From the NCBI RefSeq assembly GCF_036226365.1, contig NZ_CP108462.1, positions 7,162,501-7,226,500 on the forward strand: a stretch of 64,000 bases of DNA, in the 5' to 3' direction. Below the pieces are notes generated by a model. The model saw only the letters and a program-made list of their open reading frames with translations. It did no database searches and was not told the DNA's origin. How positions within the stretch are numbered: position 1 is the stretch's first letter; each line of letters opens with the position of its first letter. The translations under genes and the position numbers were made by a program. Positions 3,731-39,281 of the stretch are shown piece by piece. Origin of the DNA: Streptomyces sp. NBC_01262 (lineage in GTDB: Bacteria > Actinomycetota > Actinomycetes > Streptomycetales > Streptomycetaceae).

Positions 3731-6463
3731 CTACGCGTCGCCACCGGCCGCGCCGGGGTGCGCCGCGGAGACGTCGAGCAGCTGGTATCGGTCGATCGCC
3801 TGCTTGAGCACGGACCGGTCGATCTTGCCGTCCTTGGCGAGCTCGGTGAGGACGCCGAGGACCACCGACTGCGCGTCGATGTGGAAGAAGCGCCGGGCCG
3901 CGCCACGGGTGTCCGCGAAGCCGAAGCCGTCCGCCCCGAGGGACTGGTAGGGGCCGGGGACCCAGCGGGAGATCTGGTCGGGGACGGCCCGCATCCAGTC
4001 GGAGACGGCGACGAAGGGACCTTCGGAGCCCGCGAGCTTGCGCGTGACGTAGGGCACACGCTGCTCCTCCTCCGGGTGGAGGAGGTTGTGGGTCTCGGTC
4101 TCGACGGCGTCGCGCCGCAGCTCGTTCCAGGAGGTGGCGGACCAGACGTCGGCCCGTACGTTCCAGTCCTCGGCGAGGATCTTCTGCGCCTCCAGGGCCC
4201 ACGGCACCGCCACGCCCGACGCGAGGATCTGCGCGGGGATGGATCCGGCGTCGCCGGTGCGGTACTTGTAGATGCCCTTGAGGATGCCCTCGGCGTCGAC
4301 GTCGGCCGGCTCCGCGGGGTGCACGATCGGCTCGTTGTAGACAGTCATGTAGTAGAAGATGTCCTCGGCGTTCTCGCCGTACATCCTCCGCAGACCGTCC
4401 TTGACGATGTGCGCGATCTCGAACCCGAAGGCGGGGTCGTAGGCGACGACCGCCGGGTTGGTCGAGGCGAGCAGGTGCGAGTGGCCGTCGGCGTGCTGGA
4501 GACCCTCACCGGTCAGGGTGGTACGGCCCGCCGTGGCGCCGAGCACGAAGCCGCGCGCGAGCTGGTCGCCCATCTGCCAGAACTGGTCGCCCGTGCGCTG
4601 GAAGCCGAACATCGAGTAGAAGACGTAGATCGGGATCAGCGGCTCGCCGTGGGTGGCGTACGCGGAGCCCGCGGCGATCAGCGAGGCCGTACAGCCGGCC
4701 TCGGAGATGCCGTCGTGCAGCATCTGACCGGTCGGGGACTCCTTGTACGCCAGGAGCAGATCGCGGTCCACGGCCTCGTACTGCTGGCCGAGCGGGTTGT
4801 AGATCTTGGCGGACGGGAAGAGCGAGTCCATGCCGAAGGTGCGGTACTCGTCGGGGGCGATCGGCACGAAGCGCTTGCCGATCTCCTTGTCCCGCATGAG
4901 GTCCTTGAGCAGCCGGACGAAGGCCATGGTGGTGGCGATCGCCTGGGTGCCGGAGCCCTTCTTGGTGGCGGCGTAGGCCTTCTCGTCCGGGAGGTTGAGG
5001 GGCTTGGCACGCACCACGCGGGTGGGGACATAGCCGCCGAGGCCGGCGCGGCGGTCGTGCATGTACTGGATTTCCTCGGACTTCGCGCCCGGGTGGTAGT
5101 AGGGCGGGTAGCCCTCTTCGAGCTGCTTGTCCGTGATGGGGATGTGCAGCCGGTCCCGGAAGCGCTTGAGGTCGTCGGTGGTGAGCTTCTTCATCTGGTG
5201 GGTCGCGTTGCGGCCCTCGAAGTTCGGCCCGAGGGTCCAGCCCTTGACGGTCTGGGCCAGGATGACGGTCGGCTGGCCCTTGTGCTCCTTGGCCGCCTTG
5301 TACGCCGCGTAGATCTTCTTGTGGTCGTGACCGCCGCGGCCCAGGTGCAGGATCTGGTCGTCGCTGAGGCCCTCGACCATGCCGCGCAGCCGCTGGTCGT
5401 CGCCGAAGAAGTGCTGGCGGATGTACGCGCCGGTCTCGGTGGCGTACGTCTGGAACTGGCCGTCGGGCGTGGTGTTGAGCTTGTTGACCAGCACGCCGTC
5501 GCGGTCCTGGGCGAGCAGCGGGTCCCAGCTGCGGTCCCAGATGAGCTTGATGACATTCCAGCCGGCGCCCCGGAACTGGGACTCCAGCTCCTGGATGATC
5601 TTGCCGTTGCCGCGCACCGGGCCGTCGAGCCGCTGGAGGTTGCAGTTGACGACGAAGGTGAGGTTGTCCAGGCCCTCGCGGGCGGCCAGGGAGAGCTGGC
5701 CGAGGGACTCGGGCTCGTCCATCTCGCCGTCGCCGAGGTAGGCCCACACATGCGAGGCGGAGGTGTCGGCGATGCCGCGCGCCTGCATGTAGCGGTTCAT
5801 CCGGGCCTGGTAGATCGCCCCGAGGGGGCCGAGGCCCATGGAGACGGTCGGGAACTCCCAGAAGTCCGGCATGAGGCGCGGGTGGGGGTACGAGGACAGG
5901 CCGTAGGGGGCCTTGGACTTCTCCTGCCGGAAGGCGTCGAGCTGCTGCTCGCTCAGCCGGTCCAGGAGGAACGCGCGGGCGTAGACGCCCGGCGAGGCGT
6001 GCCCCTGGAAGAAGATCTGGTCGCCGCCGTCGCCGCCGTCCTTGCCCCGGAAGAAGTGGTTGAAGCCCACGTCGTACAGGGAGGCGGAGGAGGCGAACGT
6101 GGCGATGTGGCCGCCGACGCCGATACCGGGCCGCTGAGCACGGGACACCATGACCGCCGCGTTCCAGCGGGTCGCGTTCAGGACCTTGCGCTCGATCTCC
6201 TCGTTGCCGGGGAAGAACGGCTCGTCCTTGGTCGCGATGGTGTTCACGTAGTCCGTGCTGCGCATCTCGGGCACGGCCACACGCTTTTCGCGGGCGCGCT
6301 CGATGAGGCGCAGCATCAGGTAGCGGGCGCGCTCGCGTCCGCGCTCGTCGATAGCGGCGTCAAGCGAGTCGAGCCATTCCGCCGTCTCCTCGGGATCGAA
6401 ATCCGGGACCTGGCTGGGAAGGCCACCAATGATGATCGGGTTGCGATCGGATCCGGAAGCCAC
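3731..6463 (-). CDS. aceE: pyruvate dehydrogenase E1 component, homodimeric
   Basis: This is the thiamine-diphosphate-dependent E1 subunit, which decarboxylates pyruvate and reductively acetylates the lipoyl domain of E2, feeding glycolysis into the TCA cycle. At 910 aa it has the full length of the homodimeric AceE type. The ThDP/Mg motif is visible as [12 protein letters not shown] followed about 30 residues later by [10 protein letters not shown]. The remaining transketolase-like domains (central pyrimidine-binding with [11 protein letters not shown], and the C-terminal domain) are intact. The ATG at 6463 starts [10 protein letters not shown]. No E2 or E3 gene is adjacent, as is usual in Streptomyces, so it is transcribed alone from the 420-bp upstream gap. 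Confidence 0.97.
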
Positions 6464-12298: not shown

Positions 12299-13465
12299 AT
12301 GCGCCACTTCGGGCACCTCGCGCCAGACGTACGGGATGAGCTGTTCCACCGCGAGCCGCAGGAATTCACCTCCGACTCGCCCGCGCGCACGCTCGCCGTG
12401 GCCCTGGGAGCGACCCTCTACAGCCCGGCCACCCGGACCACCCTCGCCGACGCCGTCCTCAAGCAGGCCGCGCAAGGCGTCGTCTCCATGGTGCTGTGCC
12501 TGGAGGACTCCATCGACGACCGCGAGGTCGAAGGCGCCGAGGAGAACCTCGTCCGCCAGTTCGCCGACCTCGCCGCCCGGGCCGACCGCGACCAGCTGCC
12601 GCTGCTCTTCATCCGCGTCCGCACCCCCGAGCAGATCAGCGACCTCGTCCGCCGCCTCGGCGACGACGTCCGGCTGCTGTCCGGATTCGTACTCCCCAAA
12701 TTCACCGAGGAAACCGGCGTCCCCTTCCTCGAAGCCCTCACCGCCGCCGAGCTCGCCTGCGGCCGGCGGCTCTTCGCCATGCCGGTGCTGGAGTCCCCGC
12801 AGCTGCTGCACCTGGAGACCCGCACCGAGACCCTGTACGGCATCTCGCGCACCGTCGACAAGTACCGCGAGCGGGTGCTGGCCCTGCGGCTCGGCGTCAC
12901 CGACTTCTGCTCCGCGTACGGGCTGCGCCGCTCGCCCGACATGACCGCGTACGACGTCCGGATCGTCGCCTCGGTCATCGCCGACCTGGTCAATGTGCTG
13001 GGGCGGGCCGACGGCACCGGCTTCACGATCACCGGTCCGGTGTGGGAGTACTTCAAGCACTCCGAGCGCATGTTCAAGCCGCTGCTGCGCCACAGCCCCT
13101 TCGTCCCCGAGGCGGTCGACCTGCGCCAGTCCCTGATCCAGCACGACATGGACGGGCTGCTGCGCGAGATCGAGCTCGACCGCACGAACGGCCTCCAGGG
13201 CAAGACCTGCATCCATCCGTCGCACGTACTGCCCGTGCACGCGCTCAACGTCGTCTCGCACGAGGAGTGGAGCGACGCCGTCGACATCCTCCACGAGGAC
13301 CGCAGCGGCGGCGGCGTCCTGCGTTCGGCCTACACCAACAAAATGAACGAGGTGAAGCCGCACCGCGCCTGGGCCGAGCGCACCCTGCGGCGCGCCGAGG
13401 TCTTCGGCGTGGCCCGCGACGAGATCGGCTTCGTCGAGCTGCTGTCCGCGTGCGTGCCCGCGTGA
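12299..13465 (+). CDS. HpcH/HpaI (CitE-like) aldolase/citrate lyase family protein
   Basis: This is a TIM-barrel lyase of the HpcH/CitE superfamily, 388 aa, with the typical VSMVLCLEDSIDD metal/acid motif near residue 70 and a GKTCIHPSHV motif near residue 300 that binds the acyl or carboxylate substrate. CitE-like enzymes cleave or form C-C bonds of oxo-acid thioesters. In Ter-linked operons this family has been predicted to help build a nucleoside-like metabolite. The stop TGA overlaps the GTG of the following gene (GTGA), so translation is coupled. The C-terminal 50 residues extend beyond the barrel. Confidence 0.9.
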   Translation: MRHFGHLAPDVRDELFHREPQEFTSDSPARTLAVALGATLYSPATRTTLADAVLKQAAQGVVSMVLCLEDSIDDREVEGAEENLVRQFADLAARADRDQLPLLFIRVRTPEQISDLVRRLGDDVRLLSGFVLPKFTEETGVPFLEALTAAELACGRRLFAMPVLESPQLLHLETRTETLYGISRTVDKYRERVLALRLGVTDFCSAYGLRRSPDMTAYDVRIVASVIADLVNVLGRADGTGFTITGPVWEYFKHSERMFKPLLRHSPFVPEAVDLRQSLIQHDMDGLLREIELDRTNGLQGKTCIHPSHVLPVHALNVVSHEEWSDAVDILHEDRSGGGVLRSAYTNKMNEVKPHRAWAERTLRRAEVFGVARDEIGFVELLSACVPA

Positions 13466-15927
13466 CGGGCCCGACCGGCGTCTGGACCGGCCAGTGGGTC
13501 GCCGACCGCCTCGGCATCGAGCTGAGCGGTGACGGCATCCGCGAGCTGCTCGGGCTCGCCCTGCGCCGCAACCCCAAGCGGGCCCACCTGCTGGTGTCGA
13601 ACGTGCTCGGCAAGCACGTCCCCCAGCGGCCCGCCGTCGTCCACGCCGCCGGGCACGGCCTGGGGGTGCGGGTGCGGGCCCTGCTGGGTGACGACGACGC
13701 CGCCCGGTCCGTCGTCCTCGGCTACGCCGAGACCGCCACCGGGCTCGGCCACGCCGTCGCGGACGGCCTCGCCCTCGCCCCGTACCTGCACTCCACCCGC
13801 CGCCCCGTCGCCGGCGTCCGCACGGCCGGCGGCTTCGAGGAGAGCCACAGCCACGCCACCTCGCACCTGCTCCTCCCGGAGGACCCGGGGCTCCTGGCGG
13901 GTGACGGGCCGCTCGTGCTGGTCGACGACGAGTTCTCGACCGGCAACACCGTGCTCAACACGATCACCGACCTGCACGCGCGGTACCCGCGTGAGCGGTA
14001 CGTCGTCGTGGCGCTCGTCGACATGCGGTCGGAAGCGGACCGGGGGCGCCTGCGGGACTTCGCGGCGGAGCTCGGCGCGCGGGTCGACCTCATCGCGCTC
14101 GGCTCCGGCACGGTCCTCCTGCCGGAGGGGGTGCTTGAGCGGGGGCAAGCGCTGGTGGCGGCCCACGAGGGGCTTTCCCCCACCCCGCCCCTTCCCGAAA
14201 CCGGGGCTTCGCCCCGGACCCCACTGGGGGCTTCGCCCCCAGACCCCCAGTCCTCAAACGCCGGACGGGCTGAGTTTGTCGACCTCGGCTGGCCGGCCGG
14301 CCTCCCCGACGGCGGCCGCCACGGCTTCACCCCCGCCCACCGCACCCGCCTCGACGCCGCCCTCCCCGCCATGGCGGCCAAGCTCGCCGCCGCGCTCCCG
14401 CGAACAGCGCGCCGCGTGCTCGTCCTCGGCAACGAGGAGCTGATGTACGCCCCGCTGCGGCTCGCGCAGGCCATGGAGGAGGCCCTCGGGGGCGAGGCGG
14501 AGGTCCGGTTCTCCACGACCACGCGGTCGCCCGTGCTGGCGGTGGACGACCCGGGGTACGCGATCCGCACACGTATCGTCTTCCCTGACCACGACAATCC
14601 GGCCGATGGCGACGGCGAACGCTACGCGTACAACGTCGCGGGCGGCGGCTTCGACGCGATCGTCGCCGTCGTGGACTCGGCGGGGGACACCCCCGCCCTG
14701 CAAGCCCCGGACGGGCTGCTCGCGCGGCTCGCCGGACACACAGAAAGGCTGCTGCTCGCCGTGGTGCCCTCGTACACGCCCAGCGCGCTCCCCTCCCCCC
14801 TGCGCGGCCCCGCCTTCTCCTCCTACGCGCCGGAGGAGGTCGGCTGGCTGCTGAAGGACCTGTCGGAGACGGAGCTGGAGGCGCCGACGGAGGAGCGGGA
14901 AGAGGCGATCCAGAGCGGGGGCGCGCACTACGCGGAGTCGCTGCCGGTGGAGTACCAGCCGAGCGCGGAGTACCAGGCGCTGTTCAGGGCCGCGCTGGAC
15001 ACCTCGGCGGGCCGGATGGCGCGGGCGGTCGGCGCGGTGACGGAGCTGGTGCTGGCGGAGCGGGGCCCGGACGCGGTGCTGGTGTCGCTGGCCAGGGCCG
15101 GAACCCCGGTCGGGGTGCTGATGCGCCGGTGGGCGCGGCACGCGCACGGCCTGGAGCTGCCGCACTACGCCGTCTCGATCGTGCGGGGCCGCGGCATCGA
15201 CACCACGGCGCTGCGCTGGCTCGCCGAGCACCACGACCCGGCCCAGGTGGTCTTCGTGGACGGCTGGACCGGCAAGGGCGCGATCACCCGCGAGCTGGCC
15301 GAGGCCGTCAAGCCGTACGGGAGCTTCGACCCGGAGATCGCCGTGCTCGCCGACCCCGGCGGCTGCGTACGCACCTACGGCACCCGGGACGACTTCCTGA
15401 TCCCCTCCGCGTGCCTCAACTCGACCGTGTCCGGGCTGATCTCCCGCACCGTGCTGCGCGCCGACCTGATCGGGCCGGACGACTTCCACGGCGCGAAGTT
15501 CTACCGCGAGCTGGCGGGCGCGGATGTCTCCGGGCTCTTCCTCGACACGGTCGAGGCGCGCTTCGCGGAGGTCGGCGACGAGGTCGCGCACGACGTCAAG
15601 GCACTGCAGGCCGCCGACCGCAGCCCCACCTGGGAGGGCTGGGCGGCGGTCGAGCGGATCAGCGAGGAGTACGGCATCAACGATGTCAACCTCGTCAAAC
15701 CGGGGGTCGGGGAGACCACGCGCGTGCTGCTGCGCCGCGTGCCCTGGAAGATCCTCGCCCAGCGCGGCGCCGGCGCCGACCTGGATCATGTACGCCTGCT
15801 CGCCGAGCAGCGCGGCGTCCCCGTGGAGGAGGTGGACGGCCTGCCCTACTCGTGTGTCGGGCTCATCCACCCCCGCTTCACGCGGGGCGCGACCGGCACG
15901 GACGGCAAGGCGGTAGCGGCGAAGTGA
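13462..15927 (+). CDS. fused PRTase_2-TRSP-StiP-PELOTA protein of Ter-linked pathway
   Basis: This 821-aa protein joins modules usually described separately. Residues 1-235 are a type I phosphoribosyltransferase with PRPP loop LVLVDDEFSTGNT (151-163). Residues 239-271 are a low-complexity linker encoded by a Streptomyces hairpin repeat. Residues 272-440 are a TRSP domain with the literal motif STTTRSP (351-357). Residues 450-705 are a StiP-like module (FSSYAPEEVGWLLKDL) with a second PRPP-loop-like VFVDGWTGKGAIT (597-609) and candidate cysteines 635 and 651. Residues 735-803 resemble the PELOTA-type RNA-binding domain (NDVNLVKPGVGETTRVLLRR). The GTG at 13462 is chosen because it overlaps the lyase stop. 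Family databases call StiP a cysteine protease, although the sequence also looks PRTase-like. Product of the pathway is unknown. Confidence 0.85.
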   Translation: MTGPTGVWTGQWVADRLGIELSGDGIRELLGLALRRNPKRAHLLVSNVLGKHVPQRPAVVHAAGHGLGVRVRALLGDDDAARSVVLGYAETATGLGHAVADGLALAPYLHSTRRPVAGVRTAGGFEESHSHATSHLLLPEDPGLLAGDGPLVLVDDEFSTGNTVLNTITDLHARYPRERYVVVALVDMRSEADRGRLRDFAAELGARVDLIALGSGTVLLPEGVLERGQALVAAHEGLSPTPPLPETGASPRTPLGASPPDPQSSNAGRAEFVDLGWPAGLPDGGRHGFTPAHRTRLDAALPAMAAKLAAALPRTARRVLVLGNEELMYAPLRLAQAMEEALGGEAEVRFSTTTRSPVLAVDDPGYAIRTRIVFPDHDNPADGDGERYAYNVAGGGFDAIVAVVDSAGDTPALQAPDGLLARLAGHTERLLLAVVPSYTPSALPSPLRGPAFSSYAPEEVGWLLKDLSETELEAPTEEREEAIQSGGAHYAESLPVEYQPSAEYQALFRAALDTSAGRMARAVGAVTELVLAERGPDAVLVSLARAGTPVGVLMRRWARHAHGLELPHYAVSIVRGRGIDTTALRWLAEHHDPAQVVFVDGWTGKGAITRELAEAVKPYGSFDPEIAVLADPGGCVRTYGTRDDFLIPSACLNSTVSGLISRTVLRADLIGPDDFHGAKFYRELAGADVSGLFLDTVEARFAEVGDEVAHDVKALQAADRSPTWEGWAAVERISEEYGINDVNLVKPGVGETTRVLLRRVPWKILAQRGAGADLDHVRLLAEQRGVPVEEVDGLPYSCVGLIHPRFTRGATGTDGKAVAAK
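14176..14275. repeat. Streptomyces hairpin repeat inside coding sequence
   Basis: Two back-to-back perfect hairpins, CCGGGGC-TTC-GCCCCGG (14201-14217) and TGGGGGC-TTC-GCCCCCA (14225-14241), are followed by CCTCAAACGCCGGACGGG (14252-14269). This composite is a familiar intergenic repeat of Streptomyces genomes. Here it lies within an open frame and encodes the linker between the PRTase and TRSP modules. Confidence 0.8.
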
Positions 15928-19770: not shown

Positions 19771-21189
19771 TCAGCTCCAGCGGGCGACCTCGACGTTCTC
19801 CAGCACACCGAGTGCGTCGGGGACGAGCACGGCGGCCGAGTAGTAGGCACTGACGAGATACGAGATGATCGCCTTTTCGTTGATTCCCATGAAGCGCACG
19901 GACAGGCTCGGCTCGTATTCGTCCGGAATTCCGGTCTGGTGCAGGCCGATGACGCCCTGGTTGTCCTCGCCGGTGCGGAGCGCGATGATCGAGCTCGTGT
20001 TCTCCTTCGTGACGGGGATCTTGTTGCACGGGAGGATCGGAATTCCACGCCAGGCCGGAATCGAGTGGCCCTGGAAATCCACGTGATCCGGATAGAGGCC
20101 CCGGCTGTTGAACTCACGGCCGATCGCGGCGATCGCCTTCGGATGCGCCAGCAGGAACTGCGTGTTACGGCGACGGCTGATCAGCGCGTCCAGGTCGTCC
20201 GGGGTCGGCGGGCCGGCATGCGTGTTGATCCGCTGGGAGTAGTCCGCATTGTGCAGGAGGCCGAATTCCCGGTGGTTGATGAGCTCGTGCTCCTGCCGCT
20301 CGCGCAGCGCCTCGATAGTGAGCTTGAGCTGCTGCTCGACCTGGTTGTACGGCTGGTTGTACAGGTCGGCGACCCGGCTGTGCACCCGCAGCACGGTCTG
20401 GCCCACGCTCAGCTCGTACTCGCGCGGGTGGGTCTCGTAGTCGACGAAGGTGCCCGGCAGTTGCGCCTCGCCCACGTGGCCGGCGGACAGCGCGATCTCG
20501 GCCTGGCCGTACTTGTCCTGGGCCTGCCCGCCTCCGTCGAGGTACTCGGCTACGTGTGCCCGCAGCGCTTCCGACTGGCTCGCCACGGCGTCGAAGGCCT
20601 GGCGGGGGAGGGCGAGCAGGGTGACGGCGGTGGCGGCCTTGGCGGTGAAGCCCCAGGCGCCGTCGGAGGAGGCCAGCGACTCGTCGCCGAAGTGGCCGCC
20701 GTCCGCGAGGAATCCGACCACGGCCTGGCCGTCGTACTTGCCGGTGGCCAGCTTGTCGACCTTGCCGTGGGCGATCAGGAACACCTGGTCGGACGGCCGG
20801 CCCTCTTCCACGATCACTTCGCCCGGAGCGAATTCACGCTGCACGAACCGGTCCGCCAGGGCGCTGAGCACGCCCGGGTCCTCGAAACCGCGCAGCAGCG
20901 GCAGTTCCCCGAGCTCGGCCGGAATCACCCGTACCTCGGAGCCGGTCTGGATGAAATCGACCCGGCCGTCCCCCACCGAATAACTCAGCCGCCGGTTGAC
21001 CCGGTAGGTGCCGCCCGCGACCTGGACCCAGGGCAGAATCCTCAGCAGCCACCGCGAGCTGATTCCCTGCATCTGCGGAGCGGATTTCGTCGTGGTCGAC
21101 AGATTCCGCGCCGCCGCCGTACCAAGGGCCTGCTGGGGCGTTGCTTCCTCTGCCCCGGCCTCCGGCGCGATACCTGACTCAACCGACAT
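19771..21189 (-). CDS. family 2B encapsulin shell protein with cNMP-binding-like insert
   Basis: This is a 472-aa HK97-fold shell protein expected to self-assemble into a protein nanocompartment. The order is a disordered N-terminal arm (about 1-40), the first shell segment (41-92, with [20 protein letters not shown]), an inserted cyclic-nucleotide-binding-like domain (about 95-215, GGHFGDESL at 164-172), then the bulk of the shell fold with [20 protein letters not shown] and C-terminal [12 protein letters not shown]. This architecture defines family 2B. The insert lacks the Arg that normally contacts the cyclic phosphate. GGGAGGA lies 8 nt before the ATG. Family 2B shells usually enclose terpene cyclases; none is encoded nearby. 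Confidence 0.93.
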
Positions 21190-38864: not shown

Positions 38865-39281
38865 TCAGAGTGGGCGGTTTTGCTGCTCGATGTACTGGCG
38901 GACGGTCGACAGTGGGGCTCCGCCGACGGATCCGGCGAAGTAGGAGCCGGACCAGAGTTTGTTGGCGCGGTAGTAGTGCCGTGCCAGGTCGGGGAACTCG
39001 TGCTTCAGGCGACGGGAGGAGACGCCCTTGAGGGAGTTGACCAGCTTGGAGACGGCGACTTTGGGCGGGAAGTTGACGAGCAGGCGTACGTGGTCGGCCT
39101 CGCCGTTGAACGCGGTCAGCTCTGTCTCGAAGTCCGCGCATACCGCGCGCATGATCTCCTCGCACCGCGTCAGATGCTGGTCGGTGAACACGTTGTGCCG
39201 GTATTTGGTCACGAAAACCAAGTGTGCGTGCATGAGGAACGTGCAGTGTCTGCCAGTTCTGATCTCTCCGTACTCGGTCAT
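38865..39281 (-). CDS. tnpA: IS200/IS605 Y1 transposase TnpA
   Basis: This is a 138-aa HUH single-strand transposase. The metal-binding HUH motif is MHAHLVF (H18 and H20), and the catalytic tyrosine is Tyr130 in VRQYIEQQ, both intact. Size and motif spacing match active Y1 transposases. It is divergently arranged from tnpB with 26 bp between start codons, so both share a promoter region. Confidence 0.95.
   Translation of the reverse strand: MTEYGEIRTGRHCTFLMHAHLVFVTKYRHNVFTDQHLTRCEEIMRAVCADFETELTAFNGEADHVRLLVNFPPKVAVSKLVNSLKGVSSRRLKHEFPDLARHYYRANKLWSGSYFAGSVGGAPLSTVRQYIEQQNRPL

Follow-up and report, generated by a model that had tools for sequence, protein, structure and literature searches.

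The capture of a dispersed palindromic repeat in frame within a gene is a principle already known from Rickettsia and some proteobacteria. The Rickettsia palindromic elements (RPE) are short, palindromic and dispersed repeats that possess open frames and are found in frame inside conserved genes (PMC2229807, PMC10969869). REPs, which include the GTAG and CGTC REPs, are described as multicopy hairpins that often occur as inverted pairs and are mostly intergenic, with some copies in ORFs; two Xanthomonas species carry different REPs at about the same recB site, and flexible linkers have been proposed as tolerated sites for intragenic REPs (PMC3733652, the main text of which does not contain the word Streptomyces). 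In addition, bacterial MITEs such as ERIC, Correia/NEMIS, YPAL, and RUP, which are about 100-200 bp long, have been reported to form structured RNA and in some cases to be fused in frame to ORFs (PMC2229807). With regard to Streptomyces, the passages on palindromic elements in an S. coelicolor transcriptome paper name E. coli REPs and no Streptomyces family (PMC4681348). No report of such a capture in Streptomyces was found in the open-licence literature, from which four repeat strings were absent as well. What is new in the case presented here is the lineage, Streptomycetaceae, and the convergence of unrelated repeats on one linker.

Here, we have analyzed a hairpin repeat (family 1) of which one copy is read in frame between two domains of a protein encoded in the window, i.e., the whole stretch of DNA that was analyzed (64,000 nucleotides; Table 1). 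The repeat is similar to RPEs in kind in that it is dispersed mostly outside genes and is read in frame in a gene that has element-free orthologues, whereas it differs from them in its GC-rich actinomycete host, its mostly intergenic copies, the location of its captures at linkers, and the occurrence of two unrelated families in one linker. Compared to REPs and REPINs, the family-1 copies checked here have no nearby RAYT partner: 8 Y1_Tnp matches are present in the genome, and the corresponding loci of about 3 kb hold one tail with 4 mismatches and no left end. A RAYT/IS200 transposase was considered as the mover and rejected, since the element does not flank the Y1_Tnp genes of this genome. 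The CGTC motif, as judged by eye in intergenic copies, lies inside the antisense tail and is not terminal. Compared to MITEs, the window element has neither terminal inverted repeats (no inverted pair joins the element ends within 14050-14400) nor a target-site duplication (no duplicated flank was seen by eye in the captured copies listed). An IS200-type Y1_Tnp transposase gene is located elsewhere in the window (38880-39242, minus strand).

Table 1. Features of the host gene and of the captured family-1 element (positions in the window).
Feature	Position	Strand	Basis
Host gene, 821 aa, PRTase_2 - TRSP - StiP - PELOTA_1	13462..15927	+	Open frame; Pfam
PRTase_2 domain, residues 29-216	13546..14109	+	Pfam
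PRTase-TRSP interdomain linker, 44 aa, counted GQALV to WPAGLPDGG	14158..14289	+	
Family-1 repeat element, whole	14169..14273	+	Limits by eye, sequence shared with intergenic copies
Small hairpin GGGG-CTTT-CCCC, left end of the element	14169..14180	+	
Left module TTTCCCCCACCCCGCCCCTTCCCGAAA	14174..14200	+	Repeat identity
Hairpin 1, 7-bp stem, TTC loop, perfect	14201..14217	+	
Hairpin 2, 8-bp stem, TTC loop, perfect	14224..14242	+	
Tail module CCTCAAACGCCGGACGGGCTGA	14252..14273	+	Repeat identity
TRSP domain, residues 283-420	14308..14721	+	Pfam
StiP domain, residues 453-697	14818..15552	+	Pfam
PELOTA_1 domain, residues 724-803	15631..15870	+	Pfam

The host gene, which is conserved and belongs to the stress response, starts with GTG and overlaps the TGA stop of an upstream C-C bond lyase gene, and a TerD gene is located close to it on the opposite strand. 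Pfam matches to all four domains of the protein are over the cut-off. The frame is stop-free from 13462 to 15927, in agreement with the initial annotation, which had proposed that the repeat is read in frame between PRTase and TRSP. The repeat stretch between PRTase_2 and TRSP encodes GLSPTPPLPETGASPRTPLGASPPDPQSSNAGRA, and GLSPTPPLPETGASPR is a segment of the linker peptide encoded by the captured element. Residues 238-265 of the linker have pLDDT values below 50 and no predicted secondary structure (AlphaFold2), and the PRTase-TRSP linker is accordingly predicted to be flexible and disordered. TRSP and StiP (joint at about 14722-14817) also share one frame in the window and in most orthologues; in two orthologue loci (L089 and L123), a stop occurs less than 200 residues past the linker and StiP is separate or missing from that frame.

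The same annotation had described a composite of two perfect TTC-loop hairpins and a tail at 14176-14275. Both hairpins and the tail after them were found and the composite is real, but the element is longer (about 14169-14273) and also includes a left module and a small hairpin. The order of modules in intergenic copies is the same as that in the window copy, and most of the intergenic copies listed carry an extra hairpin, GAACGCCCTNCGGGCGTGT, directly before the tail, where the window copy has AGT instead. Hairpins of such size alone mean little: in the window, 18 perfect stems with a 3-nt loop and a length of 7 bp or more were counted, compared to a mean of 11.4 in ten crude shuffles, and the folding z-score of the element region against shuffles is -1.97. 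Since single hairpins of this size are common in such DNA, the claim rests on repeat identity, which is what exceeds chance, and it is on this ground, not on folding, that chance hairpins were dismissed. Neither stem is followed by a T run and the copy is embedded in an open frame, a situation that does not correspond to an intrinsic terminator; similarly, an Rfam search of 13900-14600 gave no match over the gathering score (the best was ar15, with 20.4 bits against 40).

Copies of the repeat were searched for in the whole genome, a single contig of 9.74 Mb. The tail is present at 193 places with at most 2 mismatches, and its 20-base core is exact at 56 places; the left module has 17 exact copies, including that of the window, and 45 with at most 3 mismatches, while the reversed-pattern control was 0 for both modules. 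Across Streptomycetaceae, the tail family has a patchy distribution (140 of 297 genomes and 4 of 17 genera) and reaches up to 381 copies. For the analysis of genomic context, 158 of the 193 tail places, among them 100 of the 110 whose variable base is G or T and leaving out most 2-mismatch places, were combined with 45 left-end places, and these 203 sites formed 140 clusters. A cluster was considered to be in-frame coding if one stop-free frame spanned it and both sides had a coding codon score. By this test, with a codon-score classifier trained only on orthologues of the PRTase-TRSP gene, 4 of the 140 examined clusters, including that of the window, are in-frame coding and SoxD-SoxA is a borderline fifth, which bears out the earlier view that the repeat normally lies between genes. 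The coding density of Streptomyces is near 87%, and that so few copies are in frame despite this density implies that copies strongly avoid genes. The repeat also resembles BIMEs in layout, as the same pieces form modular arrays here (41 of 105 loci).

Several additional observations concern these copies. Stretches of at least 250 bp are shared with distant loci of the genome by 41 of the 105 loci around family-1 sites. Such loci, for instance L002, L005, L028, L217, and L220, are part of much larger intergenic arrays of family-1 modules (about 500-900 bp), whose distant recurrences are 75-95% identical and lack a coding signal. Family 1 was detected in 3 plasmid records, in none of which does an annotated gene lie under the best place.

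Besides the window copy, four more in-frame captures were detected in the same genome, i.e., in AccD-AccA, SoxD-SoxA, HypF, and a TraG-like ATPase, all of which have Pfam domains. The AccD-AccA carboxyltransferase contains Carboxyl_trans (91-233) and ACCA (316-577) with the element peptide in between; in the HypF capture gene, HypF_C_2 is matched as two stretches; the TraG-like capture gene encodes a TraG-D_C protein; and Pfam finds SoxD plus the start of SoxA in the SoxD-SoxA capture. Three of the five captures (PRTase-TRSP, AccD-AccA, and SoxD-SoxA) are located at domain or subunit boundaries. The AccD-AccA linker was compared by sliding alignment, from which rows L232-L235 were left out as they scored too low. 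Its element is antisense in the window's genome (L012, G000:C1:4214289-4214398) and sense in the nearest relative, G014 (L231, G014:C9 around 20243-20387), encodes a peptide of the same type in both (SPTPPLPETG...QSSNAGRA), and is absent from G008, G026, G010, G019, G007, and G022. Such opposite orientations in one place suggest either separate captures or an inversion. The G014 copy apparently has further hairpin repeats nested inside it.

The PRTase-TRSP linker was then compared among 110 loci (80 from named Streptomyces and 30 from the window's genus, window included), in all of which PRTase and TRSP are in one frame whether a repeat is present or not. The linker sequences differ widely from one another, and their commonest length is about 22-26 aa, compared to 44 aa in the window. 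For 102 linkers (8 of the 110 loci were left out), the median length is 44 aa in those with a recognised repeat (n=29, including the window and 6 family-2 variants assigned by eye) versus 26 aa in those without (n=73; p=1.3e-8). The initial annotation had named hairpin-free orthologues with highly conserved linker residues as the observation that would speak against it; no such case was found, the 73 repeat-free linkers among the 102 having a median length well below that of the window linker and the 110 sequences being divergent.

A second, unrelated Streptomyces repeat (family 2), GGGGCGCGGGGAACTGCGCGA, was identified in 20 of the 110 linkers, on one strand or on both, with at most 3 mismatches, whereas in a codon-shuffle control (50 rounds of 102 linkers) it never matched with fewer than 4 mismatches. 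Six more linkers outside these 20 are family-2-like by eye (L037, L065, L088, L091, L094, and L098). Genomic copies of family 2 were counted in 20 hand-picked, non-random genomes: 49-318 copies were found in 14 genomes with family 2 in the linker and 10-31 in five without a linker repeat, and S. melanogenes has 542 copies while its linker holds the family-1 left module instead. In S. antibioticus, 2 of 60 family-2 clusters (taken in listing order from 119 places with at most 1 mismatch) are in-frame, one of them being the PRTase-TRSP linker and the other having no Pfam match. A family-2 query that partially overlaps the linker (L049:4732-4932, with the linker at 4685-4885) matched 12 plasmid records, in 2 of which annotated genes lie under the best place (AMP-binding protein and alpha/beta fold hydrolase). 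Across Streptomycetaceae, repeats of two or more unrelated families have evidently entered the PRTase-TRSP linker.

In a quick gene tree constructed with the linker removed, family 1 appears in two separate places, i.e., in S. melanogenes and in the window clade. The family-2 label, for which 6 variants were counted along with the 20 rows, requires 8 changes, which may be gains or losses. The linker of the nearest relative, G014, contains, on the opposite strand, a tail with 3 mismatches that directly adjoins part of the left module. This is probably a reversed, internally deleted family-1 remnant, although by its longest run the match is weak, as about 0.2 linkers in a shuffled set of 102 would be expected to share a run of 19 nt. 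The family-2 arms are 92% alike compared to 58% for flanking fourfold sites (153 pairs from 18 linkers, the rows having been chosen for having an arm). This contrast could fit recent or repeated arrival, conversion from genomic copies, or maintenance at the DNA level.

Considering all of the above, the window linker very probably reflects near-neutral capture of a dispersed GC-rich hairpin repeat, in frame, in the tolerant disordered linker of a Ter-cluster protein whose domains had been fused beforehand. Since the repeat can be read in frames that lack stops, a copy of the right net length would add or replace about 35 residues of the linker; gene-breaking copies would presumably be purged, which would leave survivors at domain boundaries, and only captures with a tolerable length and frame would be kept. 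A net gain of about 20 aa over the usual linker of 22-25 aa, compared to the 35 codons of the element, would mean that the older linker was partly lost or replaced. Since the gain is this small and no target-site duplication was seen, either partial replacement or a route other than clean insertion may have been involved. We infer that the repeat is mobile, that insertion and not gene conversion was the route, that the capture was near-neutral, and that purging lies behind the rarity of copies in coding DNA. The greater similarity of the family-2 arms than of their flanks counts against near-neutral drift, as it could mean maintenance at the DNA level.

The initial annotation had raised the possibility that the mRNA hairpins modulate translation, and that similarity is also a reason to ask whether the hairpins are kept for an action in the mRNA, either slowing ribosomes at a domain boundary to let the upstream domain fold or affecting mRNA stability. 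Such a role would be consistent with the two strong local hairpins in the RNA fold, with the position of three of the five captures at domain or subunit boundaries, and with family-2 arms in the linker that are far more alike than flanking fourfold sites. However, the hairpins are not conserved at the site (no recognised repeat is present in 73 of the 102 linkers), G014 keeps just a deleted reversed remnant and L100 just the left end, any insertion would be best tolerated at domain boundaries, and the advantage of the fold over shuffles is modest (z -1.97), and we therefore regard an mRNA role as unlikely. A broader proposal, in which unrelated hairpin repeats have been repeatedly co-opted as ribosome-pacing linkers where domains or subunits meet in Streptomyces fusion proteins (Ter PRTase-TRSP, AccD-AccA, and SoxD-SoxA) and are maintained as DNA in coding sequence, is similarly improbable. 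The linker might instead be a preferred site of integration or gene conversion, to which its DNA or the movement machinery directs repeats, given that two unrelated families occur in the same linker in many species, that the 60 clusters examined in S. antibioticus include only 2 in-frame copies, one of which is this linker, and that the arms are near the family consensus while the flanks have diverged. This possibility has a low probability, as neither a common target motif nor a duplication was detected, short repeat-free linkers are the commonest state, and the tree does not distinguish gains of a label from losses.

The initial annotation had further suggested that the element could mark where two once separate genes were joined, in which case an intergenic repeat between the PRTase and TRSP genes would have lost the stop and fused them, with the element as the junction. 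This reading did not survive the comparison and was rejected for PRTase-TRSP, where it is very improbable: the two domains are in one frame in 110/110 loci, most of them repeat-free, and outside the family as well, in L353, whose linker is short and element-free; moreover, Pfam describes TRSP as C-terminal to PRTase_2. In a sample of the phylum, TRSP was found in 5 of 149 genomes, in all five in frame with the PRTase motif, and two of these (L350 and L351) have family-2 peptides in the linker. A join of this kind is possible at SoxD-SoxA, for which L176/L254 (G000:C1:5428366-5428392) was compared with L255, L256, and L261. SoxD and SoxA are separate genes overlapping as ATGA in G022, and they form one frame, with the element at the junction, in an antisense copy common to the window's genome and G014 and with a decayed copy in G019; on the other hand, they are fused without the element in G008, G026, and G010. 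SoxD-SoxA is a more plausible candidate for repeat-assisted gene fusion than PRTase-TRSP.

Near-neutral capture would explain the odd annotation of a Pro/Ser/Ala-rich linker without gene fusion. One linker that holds unrelated repeats in different species constitutes a natural replicate experiment in the conversion of non-coding repeats into protein sequence. The principle being established and any function putative, the recurrence in one linker is a neat case mainly for specialists.

Two minor observations were made on linkers in other genomes. Some long linkers (L050, L081, L089, L101, L103, L105, and L136) have apparently grown by short tandem amino-acid repeats, as judged by eye. In G032, the assembly breaks inside the PRTase-TRSP linker, as a repeat there would cause, with one contig ending 16 nt past GQALV (L344, C11) and the other 54 nt short of the TRSP start (L345, C619).
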